Source: Deltaproteobacteria bacterium (GTDB lineage: Bacteria; JAUYMQ01). From it: a stretch of 11,182 bases of DNA. The notes under the pieces were generated by a model, which made no database searches, was not told the DNA's origin, and worked only from the letters and a program-made list of their open reading frames with translations. Numbering within the stretch: position 1 is the stretch's first letter; each line of letters opens with the position of its first letter. The DNA lies in assembly GCA_030698575.1 (NCBI GenBank), contig JAUYMQ010000125.1, forward strand, positions 1 through 11,182, written 5' to 3'. Below are positions 4,164-11,116 of the stretch, in pieces. A program made the translations under genes and the position numbers.

Positions 4164-4799
<636 letters not shown>

Positions 4800-4822: not shown

Positions 4823-5965
4823 ATGATTGATTTCACGCTGACCGACGAGCAGCTCGCCCTTCAGGAAACCGCCCGGCGTTTCGCGCAGACCGAGATGGCG
4901 CCGCAGGCAGCCCATTTCGATCAAACCGGCGAGTTTCCGGAGAAGATCATCAAGAAGGCCTGGGAGACGGGCCTCATCAACGAGGGGATTCCCGAAGAGT
5001 ACGGCGGTCCGGGCCTGAGTGTCCTCGACACCTGCATCCTCACCGAGGAGCTTGCGGCGGGATGCGCCGGCATGACCACCTCGATGATGGTCAACTCCCT
5101 CGGCCAGCTACCCATCCTGATCGGGGGGACGAAGGCGCAGATCGAGAAGCACATCGTCCCCTTCACGAAGGAGTTCCGCTACTGCTCCTTTGCCCTCACC
5201 GAGCCCTCCAGCGGCTCCGACGCCGCCACCATGCGGACCATCGCCAAGAAGGTCGGCGACAAGTACATCCTGAACGGGCGCAAGTGCTTCATCACCAACG
5301 GTGGGGTCGCGAACCTCTACTCCACCTTCGCCACCCTCGACCCGAGCAAGGGGCACAAGGCAATCTGCGCCTTCATCGTCGAGCGCGATTCGCCGGGCGT
5401 GTCCGCCGGGAAGAAAGAAGACAAGATGGGGCAGCGGGCCTCGAACACCACCGACGTGATCTTCGAGGACGCTGAGATTCCCGCCGAGAATCTTCTCGGC
5501 CGCGAGGGTGAGGGGTTCCCTATCGCGATGAAGACGCTCGACAAGTCGCGCCCCATGATCGGCGCGCTCGCGGTCGGCGTCGCGCGGGCGGCATTCGAGC
5601 ACGCCGTGCGCTATGCCAAGGAGCGCCAGGCTTTCGGGACGCCCATCGCAAGCTTCCAGGCGGTCCAGTTCATGCTGGCCGACATGGCAAAAGACATCGA
5701 GGCGGCACGCCTGCTCACCTACCAGGCCGCCTGGATGATCGATCAGGGCATGAACGCGGCCAAGTACTCGTCCTTCGCGAAGTGCTTCGCGTCGGACGCG
5801 GCCATGCGCGTCACCACCGACGCCGTGCAGATCTACGGCGGCTACGGTTACTCGAAGGAGTACCCGGTTGAGAAGCTGATGCGGGACGCCAAGCTTATCC
5901 AGATCTACGAGGGAACGAACCAGATCCAGCGCGTGGTCATGGCCCGCGAGATCCTGAAGGACTGA
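4823..5965 (+). CDS. acyl-CoA dehydrogenase, medium-chain (MCAD)-like
   Basis: This 380-residue flavoenzyme catalyses alpha,beta-dehydrogenation of an acyl-CoA, passing electrons from FAD to ETF. N-terminal helical domain: FTLTDEQLALQETARRF to EELAAGCAGMTTSMMVNSLGQLPI (residues 4-98). Middle beta domain: YCSFALTEPSSGSDAATM (120-137) and GRKCFITNGG (152-161), both FAD-contacting. C-terminal helical domain: RQAFGTPIASFQAVQFMLADM, then TDAVQIYGGYGYSKEYPVEK. It ends with IYEGTNQIQR, in which Glu363 matches the catalytic base of mammalian MCAD. The EELAxGCxG and NSLGQxPI segments are especially MCAD-like, but the true chain length or branching of the substrate cannot be read from sequence. The ATG follows GAGAGGGA (4807-4814) and lies 23 bases after the regulator. 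No hydratase, dehydrogenase or thiolase for later beta-oxidation steps is nearby. Confidence 0.92.
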   Translation: MIDFTLTDEQLALQETARRFAQTEMAPQAAHFDQTGEFPEKIIKKAWETGLINEGIPEEYGGPGLSVLDTCILTEELAAGCAGMTTSMMVNSLGQLPILIGGTKAQIEKHIVPFTKEFRYCSFALTEPSSGSDAATMRTIAKKVGDKYILNGRKCFITNGGVANLYSTFATLDPSKGHKAICAFIVERDSPGVSAGKKEDKMGQRASNTTDVIFEDAEIPAENLLGREGEGFPIAMKTLDKSRPMIGALAVGVARAAFEHAVRYAKERQAFGTPIASFQAVQFMLADMAKDIEAARLLTYQAAWMIDQGMNAAKYSSFAKCFASDAAMRVTTDAVQIYGGYGYSKEYPVEKLMRDAKLIQIYEGTNQIQRVVMAREILKD

Positions 5966-6032: not shown

Positions 6033-6833
6033 GTGAAGATCATTGTCATCTTGAAGCAGGTTCCGGACTCCGAGACCAAGATCAAGGTCAAGGGGGACGG
6101 ATCGGGAATCGAAACGGACGGAATCAAGTACGTGATCAGCCCCTACGACGAGTACGCCGTCGAGGAAGCGCTGAAGCTCAAGGAGAAGGCGGGCGGCGAC
6201 AGCACGGTGACGGTCGTCTCGGCCGGGCCCGATCGCACGGTCGAGTCCATCCGGACGGCGCTGGCCATGGGAGCCGACGCCGCCGTCCATGTGAACGACC
6301 CGGCGCTCGAGGGTGCCGACAGCCTCGGCGTCGCCCGGGCGCTCGCGAAGGCTATACAGGACAACGGCTTCGACATCATCTTCGCCGGAAAGCAGGGCAT
6401 CGATCAGGACAACTCCCAGGTGCCCAGCGCCGTGGCCGAACTGCTCGACATTCCCCAGGTGAACATCATCGCGAAATTCGAGATCACCGAGGACAAGTCA
6501 AAGGCCACCGTGAGCCGGCGCATCGAGGGGGGCGAGGAGACCATCGAGACCTCGCTGCCCGCGCTCTTCGGCTGCGAGAAGGGACTCAACGAGCCGCGCT
6601 ACGCCTCGCTGCCGGGCATCATGAAGGCGAAGAAGAAGCCGGTGAAGACGGTGGACCTGGCCGGGCTCGGGCTCGACGCGGGCGAGGTCGGCGCCGCCGG
6701 CTCACACGTGAAGATCCTCAAGTGGATTCCGCTGCCGGAGCGCCAGGCCGGAAAGATCCTCCAGGGCATGGAGACCGCTGAGGCGTCCAAGGAGCTCGTG
6801 CGGCTCCTGCGGGAAGAGGCGAAAGTCATCTAA
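6033..6833 (+). CDS. etfB: electron transfer flavoprotein, beta subunit
   Basis: This 266-residue protein is the AMP-binding half of ETF, which carries electrons from acyl-CoA dehydrogenase to ETF-QO. It opens with MKIIVILKQVPDSETKIKVK, followed by SPYDEYAVEEALKLKE (36-51). The AMP-site signature is AGKQGIDQDNSQVPSAVAEL (118-137). The docking loop ASLPGIMKAKKK (191-202) has Leu193, equivalent to the human ETF-beta leucine that plugs into a hydrophobic pocket of the dehydrogenase. Its presence next to an acyl-CoA dehydrogenase fits a canonical respiratory ETF. A GTG start at 6033 is used, with GGAGG (6023-6027) five bases upstream; no better ATG exists and MKIIVILKQ is the usual N-terminus. 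Length is normal. Nothing points to the electron-bifurcating type, although sequence reading alone does not rule it out. Confidence 0.95.
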   Translation: MKIIVILKQVPDSETKIKVKGDGSGIETDGIKYVISPYDEYAVEEALKLKEKAGGDSTVTVVSAGPDRTVESIRTALAMGADAAVHVNDPALEGADSLGVARALAKAIQDNGFDIIFAGKQGIDQDNSQVPSAVAELLDIPQVNIIAKFEITEDKSKATVSRRIEGGEETIETSLPALFGCEKGLNEPRYASLPGIMKAKKKPVKTVDLAGLGLDAGEVGAAGSHVKILKWIPLPERQAGKILQGMETAEASKELVRLLREEAKVI

Positions 6834-6904: not shown

Positions 6905-7882
6905 ATGGCGAACGAAGTTCTGGTTCTCGCCGAGCAGCGCGAAGGGACCCTGAAGAAGATCTCACTGGAGCTCTTGTCCATCGGCGCCGAGCTGGCCGAG
7001 AAGACGGGCGCTGAACTGACCGCATTGGTGATCGGAAACGGCGCCGAGGCCCTCGCGAAGACGCTCGGCGAGGGGGGCGCGAAAAAGGTGTACGTCGCCG
7101 AGACGGCAGACAAGTACTACAACACCGAGTTCTACACCCAGGCGGTCGTCGATGCGGTGGGGCAGTCCCAGGCGGCCATCGTGCTGGGTGGCGCCACCTC
7201 GATGGGGCGCGATCTCCTGCCGCGAGCCGCGGCCCGTCTGGGCACGGGGCTCGGCACCGACTGCACCGAGCTTCGCATCGAGGACGGCAAGCTCGTCATG
7301 AGGCGCCCGGTCTACTCCGGCAAGGCCTACGTCGAGCTGACGGTGACGACCTCGCCGGCGATGGCGTCGGTCCGGCCGAATTCCTACGGCCAGGCCTCGC
7401 TCGACAGCTCGAAATCGGCCGAGGTGGTGAAGCTCGCGGTCAAGGACGTCACGCCTCGCGCGACAGTCAAGGAAACCATCAAGACAGCGGGTGACAAGCC
7501 GGATCTCACCGAGGCGGAGATCATCGTCTCGGGCGGCCGGGCCATGAAGGCCGCTGAGAACTTCAAGATCCTCCACGAGCTGGCGGACGTGATCGGCGCC
7601 ACCGTTGGTGCAAGCCGCGCGGCGGTCGACAGCGGCTACGCTCCCCACAGCATGCAGGTCGGGCAGACGGGCAAGGTCGTGAACCCGAAGCTCTACCTGG
7701 CCTTCGGGATCTCCGGGGCCATCCAGCACCTCGCCGGCATGCGGACCTCCAAGGTCATCGTGGCGATCAACAAGGACCCTGACGCCCCGATCTTCCAGAA
7801 GGCCGACTACGGCATCGTCGACGATCTTTACAAGGTCGTGCCGGCGTTGACCGAGGAGTTCAAGAAGCTGCTGGCCGAATAG
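6905..7882 (+). CDS. etfA: electron transfer flavoprotein, alpha subunit
   Basis: This 325-residue protein is the FAD-carrying half of the ETF heterodimer. Domain I covers roughly residues 1-190 ([16 protein letters not shown] at the start; [21 protein letters not shown] at 99-119). The C-terminal FAD domain carries the signature: VSGGRAMK (208-215), [20 protein letters not shown] (235-254), [20 protein letters not shown] (255-274) and the [19 protein letters not shown] motif (289-307). All regions that hold the flavin are present and length is normal. Next to etfB on one side and ETF-QO on the other, it completes the electron path to quinone. The ATG at 6905 is preceded by a good AGGAGAAGG site and lies 71 bases after etfB. 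Expected to be regulated from the fadR promoter as part of one operon. Confidence 0.95.
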
Positions 7883-7926
7883 CGCGGAAGCGCCAGGCCG
7901 ACCGACGGGCGCATGAGGAGACGAGG

Positions 7927-9627
7927 ATGGGAGAGCAGCGCGAGAGCATGGAGGTGGACGTTCTGATAGTCGGGGGGGGACCGTCCGGTCTCGCGACCGC
8001 CTACCACCTCAAGCAGGCCGCGAAGCGCCACGACGAGGCGATCGAGAAAGCCGGCGTCGGCAAGAAGGTCGGCGAGCTCTCTATCGCGGTCATCGAGAAG
8101 GCGAGCGAGGTCGGCGCCCACATGATGTCGGGCGCGGTGATGGACCCCGTTGGAATCAACGAGCTGATGCCCGACTGGCTCGAGAGAGGCGCGCCGATCG
8201 AGAGCCCCGTCAAGAAGGAAGTCGTCTATCACCTCACCGAGAAGGGCGGCTTCAAGCTTCCCCTGGTGCCGCCTCCGCTCCAGAACCACGGCAACTACGT
8301 CATCAGCCTTTCGAAGTTCATCCGCTGGCTCGGTCCCATTGTCGAGGGCGAGGGGGTGGACATCTTCTGCGGCTTCCCGGGCACCGAGGTGCTCTACGAT
8401 GGCAACCGCGTGATCGGCGTCCGGACCGGCGACAAGGGGATCGGCCCCGATGGTTCGAAGCGCTCGAACTACGAGCCCGGGATCGACCTGATGGCCAAGG
8501 TCACGGTTTTCGCCGAAGGGGTGCGCGGGAACCTCGCCAAGCCCATGATCAAGAAGCTCGGGCTCGACGCGGGGAAGAACATCATGAGCTACGAGACGGG
8601 CGTGAAGGAGGTGTTCGAGGTCCCCGAGGGGCAGATCGAGCCCGGCTTCCTCATGCATACGTCGGGCTACCCGTCACGGAAGGACGCGACGGGCGGCTCC
8701 TGGCTGTATGGCATGCAGAACAACCTCGTCTCCGTCGGTTGGGTCGTCTACCTCGACTACCGCGATCCGCTGCTCGAGCCCCACACCGAGTACCAGAAGT
8801 TCAAGAACCACCCCATCGTCAAGAAGATGCTCGAAGGCGGCAAGCCGGTCTTCTACGGCGCCAAGGCGCTCGCCTCCGGCGGCTACTACGCCATGCCGCG
8901 GCTCTCCTTCGACGGCGGGCTCCTGGTGGGCGAGGACGGCGGGTTCCTCAACAACAAGCGACTCAAGGGCATTCATCTGGCCTTCAAGAGCGGGATGATG
9001 GCCGCCGAAACGATCATCGAGGCGCTCGAGAAGGGCGACGTGACGCGCGAGACGCTCGCTAACTACGAGAAACGATTCGAGCGGAGCTGGGCCGGCAAGG
9101 AGCTTTACGGCAGCCGCAACTTCACGGCCGCCATGAGCAAGGGCTTCCCCTTCCCGGCCGCCATCCATCTGGCCGCCCAGGAAGCCACGGGCGGGCGCGG
9201 GCTCATCGATCCGCTCCCCGTGGCGCACACCGATGCGCACGCGCTGGCTTCGCTCACCGAGTATTACAACGATGCGAACGCCATGCCGGAGCGCCCGAAG
9301 TACGACGGCAAGTGGATGCTCGACAAGGTGAGCGACGTCTACATCTCGGGGACGATCCACGAGGAGCAGCAACCTCCGCACCTCAAGATCGGCAACGCGG
9401 ACATCTGCCAGCAGTGCTGGGTCAAGTTCCGGAGCCCCTGCAACCGGTTCTGCCCGGCCGACGTCTACGAGATGGCGCTCGTGAACGAGCAGACGAAGGA
9501 GCGCGCCATGCAGATTCGCTTCTCGAACTGCGTGCACTGCAAGACCTGCGACATCAAGTGCCCCTTCGACAACATCACCTGGACACCGCCGGAAGGCGGT
9601 GGCGGGCCGAACTACACGGTGCAATAG
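7927..9627 (+). CDS. ETF:quinone oxidoreductase, with an eight-cysteine (possibly two-cluster) C-terminus
   Basis: This 566-residue membrane-associated flavo-iron-sulfur enzyme oxidises reduced ETF and reduces membrane quinone. FAD site: VDVLIVGGGPSGLATAYHL (GGGPSG at residues 16-21) and ASEVGAHMMSGAVMDP. Family marks continue with VFYGAKALASGGYYAMPRLS, GGLLVGEDGGFLNNKRLKG and HLAFKSGMMAAETI. The C-terminus holds the ferredoxin-like part: CQQC (494, 497), Cys505 and FCPADVYE (Cys509), then NCVHCKTCDIKCP (535, 538, 541, 545), ending WTPPEGGGGPNYTVQ. The canonical mammalian enzyme uses only the equivalents of 509, 535, 538 and 541. Here Cys545 replaces the usual Asp of CDIKDP, and with 494/497/505 it makes a full ferredoxin pattern, so a second [4Fe-4S] is possible. 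The ATG has GAGGAG upstream (7916-7921). Confidence 0.93.
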   Translation: MGEQRESMEVDVLIVGGGPSGLATAYHLKQAAKRHDEAIEKAGVGKKVGELSIAVIEKASEVGAHMMSGAVMDPVGINELMPDWLERGAPIESPVKKEVVYHLTEKGGFKLPLVPPPLQNHGNYVISLSKFIRWLGPIVEGEGVDIFCGFPGTEVLYDGNRVIGVRTGDKGIGPDGSKRSNYEPGIDLMAKVTVFAEGVRGNLAKPMIKKLGLDAGKNIMSYETGVKEVFEVPEGQIEPGFLMHTSGYPSRKDATGGSWLYGMQNNLVSVGWVVYLDYRDPLLEPHTEYQKFKNHPIVKKMLEGGKPVFYGAKALASGGYYAMPRLSFDGGLLVGEDGGFLNNKRLKGIHLAFKSGMMAAETIIEALEKGDVTRETLANYEKRFERSWAGKELYGSRNFTAAMSKGFPFPAAIHLAAQEATGGRGLIDPLPVAHTDAHALASLTEYYNDANAMPERPKYDGKWMLDKVSDVYISGTIHEEQQPPHLKIGNADICQQCWVKFRSPCNRFCPADVYEMALVNEQTKERAMQIRFSNCVHCKTCDIKCPFDNITWTPPEGGGGPNYTVQ

Positions 9628-9661
9628 TCCCGCGCCGTCCGGATGCGCGCCGCGCGCGGGA
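9628..9661 (+). other. stem-loop overlapping the ribosome-binding site of the dioxygenase gene
   Basis: TCCCGCGC (9628-9635), directly after the ETF-QO stop, is perfectly complementary to GCGCGGGA (9654-9661). The right arm covers the first half of the GGGAGGA ribosome-binding site (9658-9664) that serves the ATG at 9672. No T-run follows, so it should not stop transcription. It could lower translation of the next gene relative to ETF-QO. Confidence 0.45.
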
Positions 9662-9671
9662 GGATCACCGG

Positions 9672-10550
9672 ATGAGCACCGGGAAGCCTGACGTCGGGAA
9701 GGAAGCCGCCGCGATCCGGGATCAGGGGTACGTTCTCATCCCGGATTTTCTCTCCCCCGGGCAGATGAGTTCCATCCGCGAGGCGCTGGCGCCTCATCTC
9801 CGGCGCGAGCACCTCGGCCGAAACAACTTCGAAGGGCACGAGACCGAGCGGGTCTATTCGCTCGTCGGCCTCGGCAAGCTTTTCGAGGATCTCGCCGAGG
9901 AGCCCCGCATCATGGCCCTCTGCGACGCCTTCCTCGAACCGAATTACCTTCTCACCGCGTCGCAGGCTATCTGCATCCATCCCGGCGAGTCTCCCCAGGC
10001 CTTCCATACCGACGACGCCTTCTACCGGATTCCACGCCCCCGCCCGGCCGTGAGCTTGAGCACCATCTACGCCATCGATCCCTTCACGGCGGAGAACGGC
10101 GCGACGCAGATCGTCCCGGGCAGCCACGCCTGGAGCGATCCGGAGCTCGAGAACATCCTGAAAGCGATCGACTTCGAAACGCGGGGACCGGAGGAACGGC
10201 GCCCGCGCCCGCCGGATCCAACGATAGAGGGGAAGATCGAGGGAAAAGTGATCGACGCGACGATGCCCGCCGGGTCGGTGATCGTCTTCCTCGGAACGTT
10301 TCTCCACCGGGGAGGCGCCAACCGGAGTACGGCGCCGCGGCTGGCGCTGTCGAACCAGTACTGCCAGCCCTGGGCGCGCCAGCAGGAGAACTACCTGATG
10401 TCCATCCCGCGCGAACGCGTGCGGCGCATGTCGCCGGGCGTCCAGTCGCTGCTCGGCTACAGCATCCACCCCCCCTTCATGGGGCACGTGAAGGGGGTGC
10501 ACCCCCGGCGTCTCCTGGAAGGCGGCGGGACAGGGAGAGAAATGAAATGA
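9672..10550 (+). CDS. phytanoyl-CoA dioxygenase (PhyH) family Fe(II)/2-oxoglutarate oxygenase
   Basis: This 292-residue protein shows the PhyH layout. The N-terminus reads IRDQGYVLIPDFLSPGQMSS, and the first metal ligands are His112 and Asp114 in AFHTDDAFY. Then come ENGATQIVPGSHAW (141-154), the distal His212 in FLHRGGANRS and Arg223 in APRLALSN, which should hold the 2-oxoglutarate carboxylate. QYCQPWARQQENY (229-241) is typical of uncharacterised bacterial PhyH members. The active site looks intact, so it should hydroxylate a substrate using O2 and 2-oxoglutarate. The family acts on very varied substrates (acyl-CoAs, ectoine, natural products, phosphonates), so the substrate is unknown. 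An acyl-CoA would fit the neighbours. The ATG follows GGGAGGA at 9658-9664. The stop overlaps the next start (ATGA). Confidence 0.87.
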   Translation: MSTGKPDVGKEAAAIRDQGYVLIPDFLSPGQMSSIREALAPHLRREHLGRNNFEGHETERVYSLVGLGKLFEDLAEEPRIMALCDAFLEPNYLLTASQAICIHPGESPQAFHTDDAFYRIPRPRPAVSLSTIYAIDPFTAENGATQIVPGSHAWSDPELENILKAIDFETRGPEERRPRPPDPTIEGKIEGKVIDATMPAGSVIVFLGTFLHRGGANRSTAPRLALSNQYCQPWARQQENYLMSIPRERVRRMSPGVQSLLGYSIHPPFMGHVKGVHPRRLLEGGGTGREMK

Positions 10551-11116
10551 CGAGCAAGACGAGGGTTCTCGGACCGGTGCGGGACGACACGGCGCTCATC
10601 ATCGTGGACATGCAGGAACGGCTGCTCCCGGCCATGCCGGAGAAGCCGCGAAAGCAGATGCTGCGCAACGCGGGGATACTCATCGAAACGGCGAAGGCGC
10701 TGGGGCTCCCCATCCTCGTGAGCGAGCAGTACCCCAAAGGGCTTGGCCCCACGGTAGACGAGATTGCCGGCGCGATCGACAATTTCAAGCCGCTCGAAAA
10801 GATGGTCTTCAGCGCGGCGCGGGATGCGGGTTTTCGGCAGCGGCTCGATGAGGTCGGTCGATCGTCCTGTATCGTGACGGGTGTCGAGAACCACGTCTGC
10901 GTCCTGCAGACGGCCCTCGATCTGGCCGCGTCAGGCAAGAACGTCTATGTCGCCCGCGACGCCACCTGCTCGCGCACCGAAGAGAACTGGAAGGCCGGCT
11001 GCGCGCAGATGGCCGAAGGCGGAGTCCAGATCACGACGACCGAGATCCTCGTCTTCCAGCTTCTTGGCGAGGCCGGCACCGAGGCCTTCAAGAAAATCTC
11101 GAAGCTCGTCCGCTAG
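10547..11116 (+). CDS. isochorismatase-like cysteine hydrolase
   Basis: This 189-residue protein belongs to the isochorismatase-like superfamily (Rossmann-like alpha/beta hydrolases). The catalytic triad of the cysteine-hydrolase branch is present: Asp21 in LIIVDMQERL, Lys85 in LEKMVFSA and Cys118 in TGVENHVCVLQTALDL. SEQYPKGLGPTV and the C-terminal ARDATCSRTEENW plus TTTEILVFQLL are marks of the ISOC1/ISOC2/YcaC-type group rather than true isochorismatases of siderophore synthesis. Members include amidases and many proteins with no known substrate. The ATG overlaps the stop of the dioxygenase gene by four bases, so the two are almost certainly translated together and may act on the same compound. 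It appears complete and seems to be the last gene of the block. A palindromic repeat starts 11 bases after its stop. Confidence 0.88.
   Translation: MTSKTRVLGPVRDDTALIIVDMQERLLPAMPEKPRKQMLRNAGILIETAKALGLPILVSEQYPKGLGPTVDEIAGAIDNFKPLEKMVFSAARDAGFRQRLDEVGRSSCIVTGVENHVCVLQTALDLAASGKNVYVARDATCSRTEENWKAGCAQMAEGGVQITTTEILVFQLLGEAGTEAFKKISKLVR

Follow-up and report, generated by a model that had tools for sequence, protein, structure and literature searches.

A single-chain ETF:quinone oxidoreductase with a candidate ligand set for a second [4Fe-4S] cluster

Descriptions of ETF:quinone oxidoreductase (ETF-QO), an enzyme whose deficiency leads to human disease (MADD), give it a single cluster. The ETF-QO considered here is encoded in an 11,182-nucleotide stretch of DNA from a Deltaproteobacteria bacterium (the window) and carries eight closely spaced cysteines near its C-terminus, raising the question of whether it binds a second cluster. 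The gene occupies positions 7927–9627 of the forward strand, with a Shine-Dalgarno-like GAGGAGA at 7915–7921 ahead of its ATG, and its translation (7927–9624) is 566 residues long. The protein matched the ETF-QO quinone-binding region PF21162 with 109.5 bits (cut-off 27.7) and, fused at its C-terminus, Fer4_ETF_QO (PF05187) with ≈119.9–124 bits (cut-off 24). The latter corresponds to a ferredoxin-like domain at residues 462–564 (9310–9618, + strand). The best solved relative was the porcine enzyme, 2gmh (423 bits, residues 4–564). A full-length AF2 model had a pLDDT of 82.8, falling below 50 for residues 460–479 and 558–566, while the C-terminal domain modelled alone was poor (pLDDT 47.5). Superposition of the full-length model on 2gmh aligned 542 residues with a Z-score of 42.8, an rmsd of 2.3 and 41% identity. 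This match confirmed the ETF-QO fold, and with the profile matches it identifies the protein as a single-chain ETF-QO with predicted enzyme activity.

The translation contains nine cysteines, at residues 148, 494, 497, 505, 509, 535, 538, 541 and 545, eight of which fall inside 52 residues (codons starting at 9406, 9415, 9439, 9451, 9529, 9538, 9547 and 9559). These eight form two motifs on the forward strand, C494-x2-C497-x7-C505-x3-C509-P (9406–9453) and C535-x2-C538-x2-C541-x3-C545-P (9529–9561), exactly as an earlier note on this DNA had placed and spaced them. Such clustering, together with the recurrence of the arrangement in independent genomes and other phyla (see below), makes it neither chance nor an assembly error. 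The earlier note had also stated that the known cluster uses 509, 535, 538 and 541, and that Cys545 stands where the human enzyme has an aspartate (CDIKDP). The alignment with 2gmh bears this out: the four canonical cysteines align, the porcine enzyme has only those four of the eight, and its residue at 545 is Asp. The C-x2-C spacing at 494/497 is unique to the window, most relatives having C-x3-C and one group (G024, G171 and G310) C-x4-C or C-x5-C at the equivalent positions, and the loop from 494 to 505 differs in length between relatives. Against the general dicluster profile PF12838 (Fer4_7; cut-off 27), the domain scored 26.6 bits, or 27.2 bits with neighbours in frame.

In both single-sequence and profile searches with the window domain, the EtfX subunit of Thermotoga maritima EtfABCX (7koe, chain D) ranked second after 2gmh, with 54 bits over residues 476–563 from the single sequence and 60 bits with a profile. 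EtfX contains two [4Fe-4S] clusters, with 7.1 Fe measured per complex (PMC10734219). Its C29, C33, C38 and C71 align to residues 494, 497, 505 and 545 of the window protein, and its C42, C61, C64 and C67 to 509, 535, 538 and 541, placing all eight ligands in the EtfX register. The second ligand set proposed in the earlier note thus coincides, residue for residue, with that of the EtfX distal cluster. In the same study, C29 and C33 were handled as distal ligands and C61 and C64 as proximal ones (PMC10734219), so that the division of each motif into three ligands for one cluster and one for the other agrees with the established homologue. Since all eight cysteines align with those of EtfX, whose two clusters are established, we assign 494, 497 and 505, with 545 as the fourth ligand, to a distal cluster, and 509 with 535, 538 and 541 to the canonical, proximal one.

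On these sequence comparisons we consider it likely, with a probability of roughly 0.77, that the window protein is a respiratory ETF-QO whose C-terminal domain has kept, or acquired again, every ligand for the two clusters of EtfX/FixX, with a second [4Fe-4S] cluster on 494/497/505/545. By analogy, we infer both the assembly of the two clusters in this enzyme and the role of the distal one. Electrons would pass from acyl-CoA dehydrogenase to ETF, and on through ETF-QO to quinone. The proximal cluster, which by homology would lie beside the FAD, would hand electrons to FAD and quinone, while the distal cluster would be located further from the FAD, probably as an additional entry relay from ETF, as a docking point or wider docking area for ETF, or as a stabiliser of the domain.

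The surrounding genes fit into the same picture, in that the row looks like one for the export of electrons from fatty-acid oxidation. It runs along one strand in the order TetR, acyl-CoA dehydrogenase, etfB, etfA and, last, ETF-QO. The TetR-family regulator (4164–4799, +; PF00440 and PF08359) has a YsiA-like C-terminal region of the fatty-acid regulator type. The acyl-CoA dehydrogenase (4823–5965, +; PF00441, PF02770 and PF02771) is the presumed electron source, and ETF, consisting of the beta subunit EtfB (6033–6833, +; PF01012) and the alpha subunit EtfA (6905–7882, +; PF01012 and PF00766), the presumed donor. Bifurcation is marked in EtfB by an arginine, R140 (PMC10734219). The window EtfB scored highest against non-bifurcating ETFs (1o94, 176 bits; 1efv, 165; 1efp, 157) and lower against bifurcating ones (6fah, 143; 4kpu, 128; 5ol2, 126; 7koe, 124), a ranking that disfavours a bifurcating ETF in the window. 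The row thus looks like an ordinary respiratory export of electrons, distinguished by one further cluster. In the few kilobases fetched around the other eight-cysteine genes, no etfAB was found, so the linkage is not a general property of these enzymes. Downstream of ETF-QO, positions 9312–10550 encode a phytanoyl-CoA dioxygenase family protein (PF05721). Its listed start overlaps ETF-QO in another frame, and translation probably begins at an ATG further inside, past the ETF-QO stop. The frame at 10547–11116 reads by eye like an isochorismatase-family hydrolase.

Relatives were collected from named genomes and from surveys of ≈390 genomes across bacterial groups, followed up by phylum and region; the window genome (G000) was the sole one of its phylum in the set searched. 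We counted 127 single-chain sequences, about half of them from Betaproteobacteria and relatives, so that the counts are not independent. Residues 494, 497 and 505 were absent and 545 was Asp in 60 sequences (the four-cysteine class), the 494/497/505 triad occurred with Asp545 in 39 (seven cysteines) and with Cys545 in 12 (eight cysteines), and 15 lacked both the triad and Cys541; the remaining sequence was cut by a contig end. Besides the window protein, the 12 comprise members of three groups (two sequences from G024/G310, four from G268/G427/G441/G405 and two from G033/G445), and three sequences of a fused clade that branches deeply (G062, G204 and G335); G171 also belongs to the first of these groups with eight-cysteine enzymes. 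At least three phyla besides that of the window are represented. When genomes were scanned at the DNA level for the second motif with a terminal Cys-Pro, 6 of 386 matched, indicating that the eight-cysteine form, although rare, occurs in several phyla. The deep clade (L102, L161 and L162) is divergent, on a long branch, and has a longer first motif (e.g., CMKCIAQYDRHGKDTPCVGDCTAEVH). Among standalone FixX outgroup domains, 17 of 22 had all eight cysteines; five standalone FixX/EtfX-like proteins (L094, L096, L098, L099 and L163) have lost distal-cluster cysteines, two of which (L098 and L099) retain the equivalent of Cys545 without the triad.

The triad was all-or-none in every relative examined, and in single-chain enzymes Cys545 always accompanied it (12/12). 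The expectation that all eight cysteines go together across bacteria held in this direction only, as the 39 enzymes with the triad and Asp545 show that Cys545 is not required with it. Free variation at 545, which the earlier note had named as an argument against a second cluster, was not seen: with an intact triad, the residue was either Cys or Asp. A literature search whose coverage lay mostly outside subscription papers found no account of a single-chain ETF-QO with two clusters; the enzyme is known, and the form described here is a genuine variant of it that recurs.

Two clusters are favoured by the presence of the eight cysteines, their match to EtfX, their recurrence, the all-or-none triad and the restriction of Cys545 to enzymes that have it. 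The case is weakened by the C-x2-C spacing, one residue off most relatives, by the 39 enzymes with Asp545, and by a PF12838 score only near the cut-off. The main alternative treats the extra cysteines as a remnant of ancestry, with the distal cluster absent, partly occupied or purely structural and electrons passing through the proximal cluster only, as in the mitochondrial enzyme. The 60 four-cysteine sequences indicate that ETF-QO can function with one cluster and no distal ligands; these ligands have also been lost from the standalone FixX proteins L094, L096 and L163, and the electron path proposed for EtfABCX is drawn via cluster II alone, leaving the need for cluster I unexplained (PMC10765413). 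Against this, all four distal ligands have been retained together across separate phyla, and in EtfX the loss of a distal ligand destabilised the holoenzyme, the mutant having both clusters or neither, so that the two were needed together (PMC10734219). We therefore regard a remnant as unlikely. It is very improbable that the cysteines are linked in disulfides or bind something else, such as a [3Fe-4S] cluster or Zn: the variable 494–505 loop (C-x2-5-C) would allow it, but a cubane cluster is favoured by the correspondence with the EtfX ligands, one to one, and by the C-x3-C-P pattern, and disulfides are improbable in the bacterial cytoplasm.

The residues around the cysteines also argue for two clusters. 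Gly-Asn-Pro precedes Cys505 in 38 of the 39 triad enzymes with Asp545 and in none of the 12 with Cys545. Conversely, Asn549 is found in all nine eight-cysteine rows and is shared by the deep clade, the four-cysteine class and EtfX, whereas only 2 of 38 seven-cysteine rows have it; Thr553 is present in 9/9 eight-cysteine rows. Because these features covary with it, Cys545 appears to be part of a coherent local state rather than a stray substitution, and the two-cluster reading gains from the eight-cysteine rows having the Asn549 of EtfX and lacking the Gly-Asn-Pro of the Asp545 class.

Asp545 with Gly-Asn-Pro is, by its sequence pattern, a second coherent state. In this class (L003–L016, L047, L083–L087 and L127–L144), Gly-Asn-Pro before Cys505 is near-invariant. 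Asp is a known cluster ligand in some ferredoxins, and in these enzymes a second cluster may accordingly be present as [3Fe-4S] or as Asp-ligated [4Fe-4S]; a cluster of unusual type is thus predicted for Acidobacteriota and other bacteria. Asp545 alone proves nothing, since the four-cysteine class, which has no second cluster, also keeps it. A separate class of ETF-QOs, with motifs such as CPAGVYE...NCVDCKATDVLGPRW, has lost the third canonical-cluster ligand, 541, in 15 of 15 sequences and is thus probably without a normal [4Fe-4S] cluster (L002, L173, L091–L093, L117–L122, L146, L147, L149, L152 and L155). The window genome carries its own copy of this kind near a contig end (G000:C601:4670-4933; L002 and L173).

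The earlier note had suggested that an extra cluster might go with menaquinone in place of ubiquinone. We scored MqnA/D or MenD as markers of menaquinone and UbiG as a marker of ubiquinone in the genomes tested. Triad-bearing ETF-QOs were mostly found in genomes with menaquinone markers, and both of the four-cysteine genomes tested had UbiG, in line with the suggestion. The association follows phylogeny, and Cys545 does not separate the quinones: seven-cysteine genomes, too, mostly had menaquinone markers, and the eight-cysteine genomes G427 and G441 also exceeded the UbiG cut-off. The extra cluster is thus not tied to menaquinone by Cys545. No quinone marker was over cut-off in the eight-cysteine genomes G405, G033 and G445, and in the window genome (92% complete) there was no MqnA/D match and nothing over cut-off for UbiG or MenD.

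Trees were calculated from the flavoprotein part only, leaving out the ferredoxin domain. Eight-cysteine lineages fell within or beside seven- and four-cysteine lineages, with weak deep support. Constraining the nine canonical eight-cysteine rows to a single clade raised the likelihood over that of the unconstrained quick search, in one comparison by 6.7 units (p-AU 0.59) and in another by 4.6 (p-AU 0.57), which is compatible with one origin; constraining eight- and four-cysteine enzymes together raised it by 5.8 units (p-AU 0.589). As neither grouping was rejected and the deep tree is weakly resolved, gain and retention of Cys545 are not separable. Tentatively, ETF-QOs could represent graded steps in the dismantling of a second cluster inherited from EtfX/FixX, from eight-cysteine enzymes with two [4Fe-4S] clusters, through seven cysteines plus Asp545 with a [3Fe-4S] or an Asp-ligated [4Fe-4S] cluster, to the four-cysteine, one-cluster mitochondrial form, with three-cysteine enzymes probably having none; the eight-cysteine enzymes, including that of the window, would then be nearest the ancestor.

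Among known systems, porcine ETF-QO (2gmh) is likewise a single chain and shares the four proximal-cluster cysteines, but it lacks 494, 497 and 505, has Asp at 545 and binds one cluster only. The seven-cysteine enzymes of Acidobacteriota, Zixibacteria and others are also single chains, with the 494/497/505 triad and ≈50% identity to the window protein; they differ in Asp545, in Gly-Asn-Pro ahead of 505, in Tyr547 and usually in Ile or Val at 549. With the distal ligands present in bacterial ETF-QOs, the one-cluster state would be one of several. T. maritima EtfX has all eight ligands and shares Asn-Ile-x-Trp past the second motif. It is, however, a small subunit in its own right within a bifurcating NADH:ferredoxin/menaquinone complex, as FixX is within FixABCX, whereas the window domain is fused to its flavoprotein and adjoins an ETF whose EtfB is nearest to those of non-bifurcating ETFs. 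The window ETF-QO thus resembles EtfX in its ligands, yet by sequence it is not an EtfX subunit, and the eight-cysteine ETF-QOs offer a single-protein system for asking why EtfX has a second cluster, a question left open for EtfABCX (PMC10765413).
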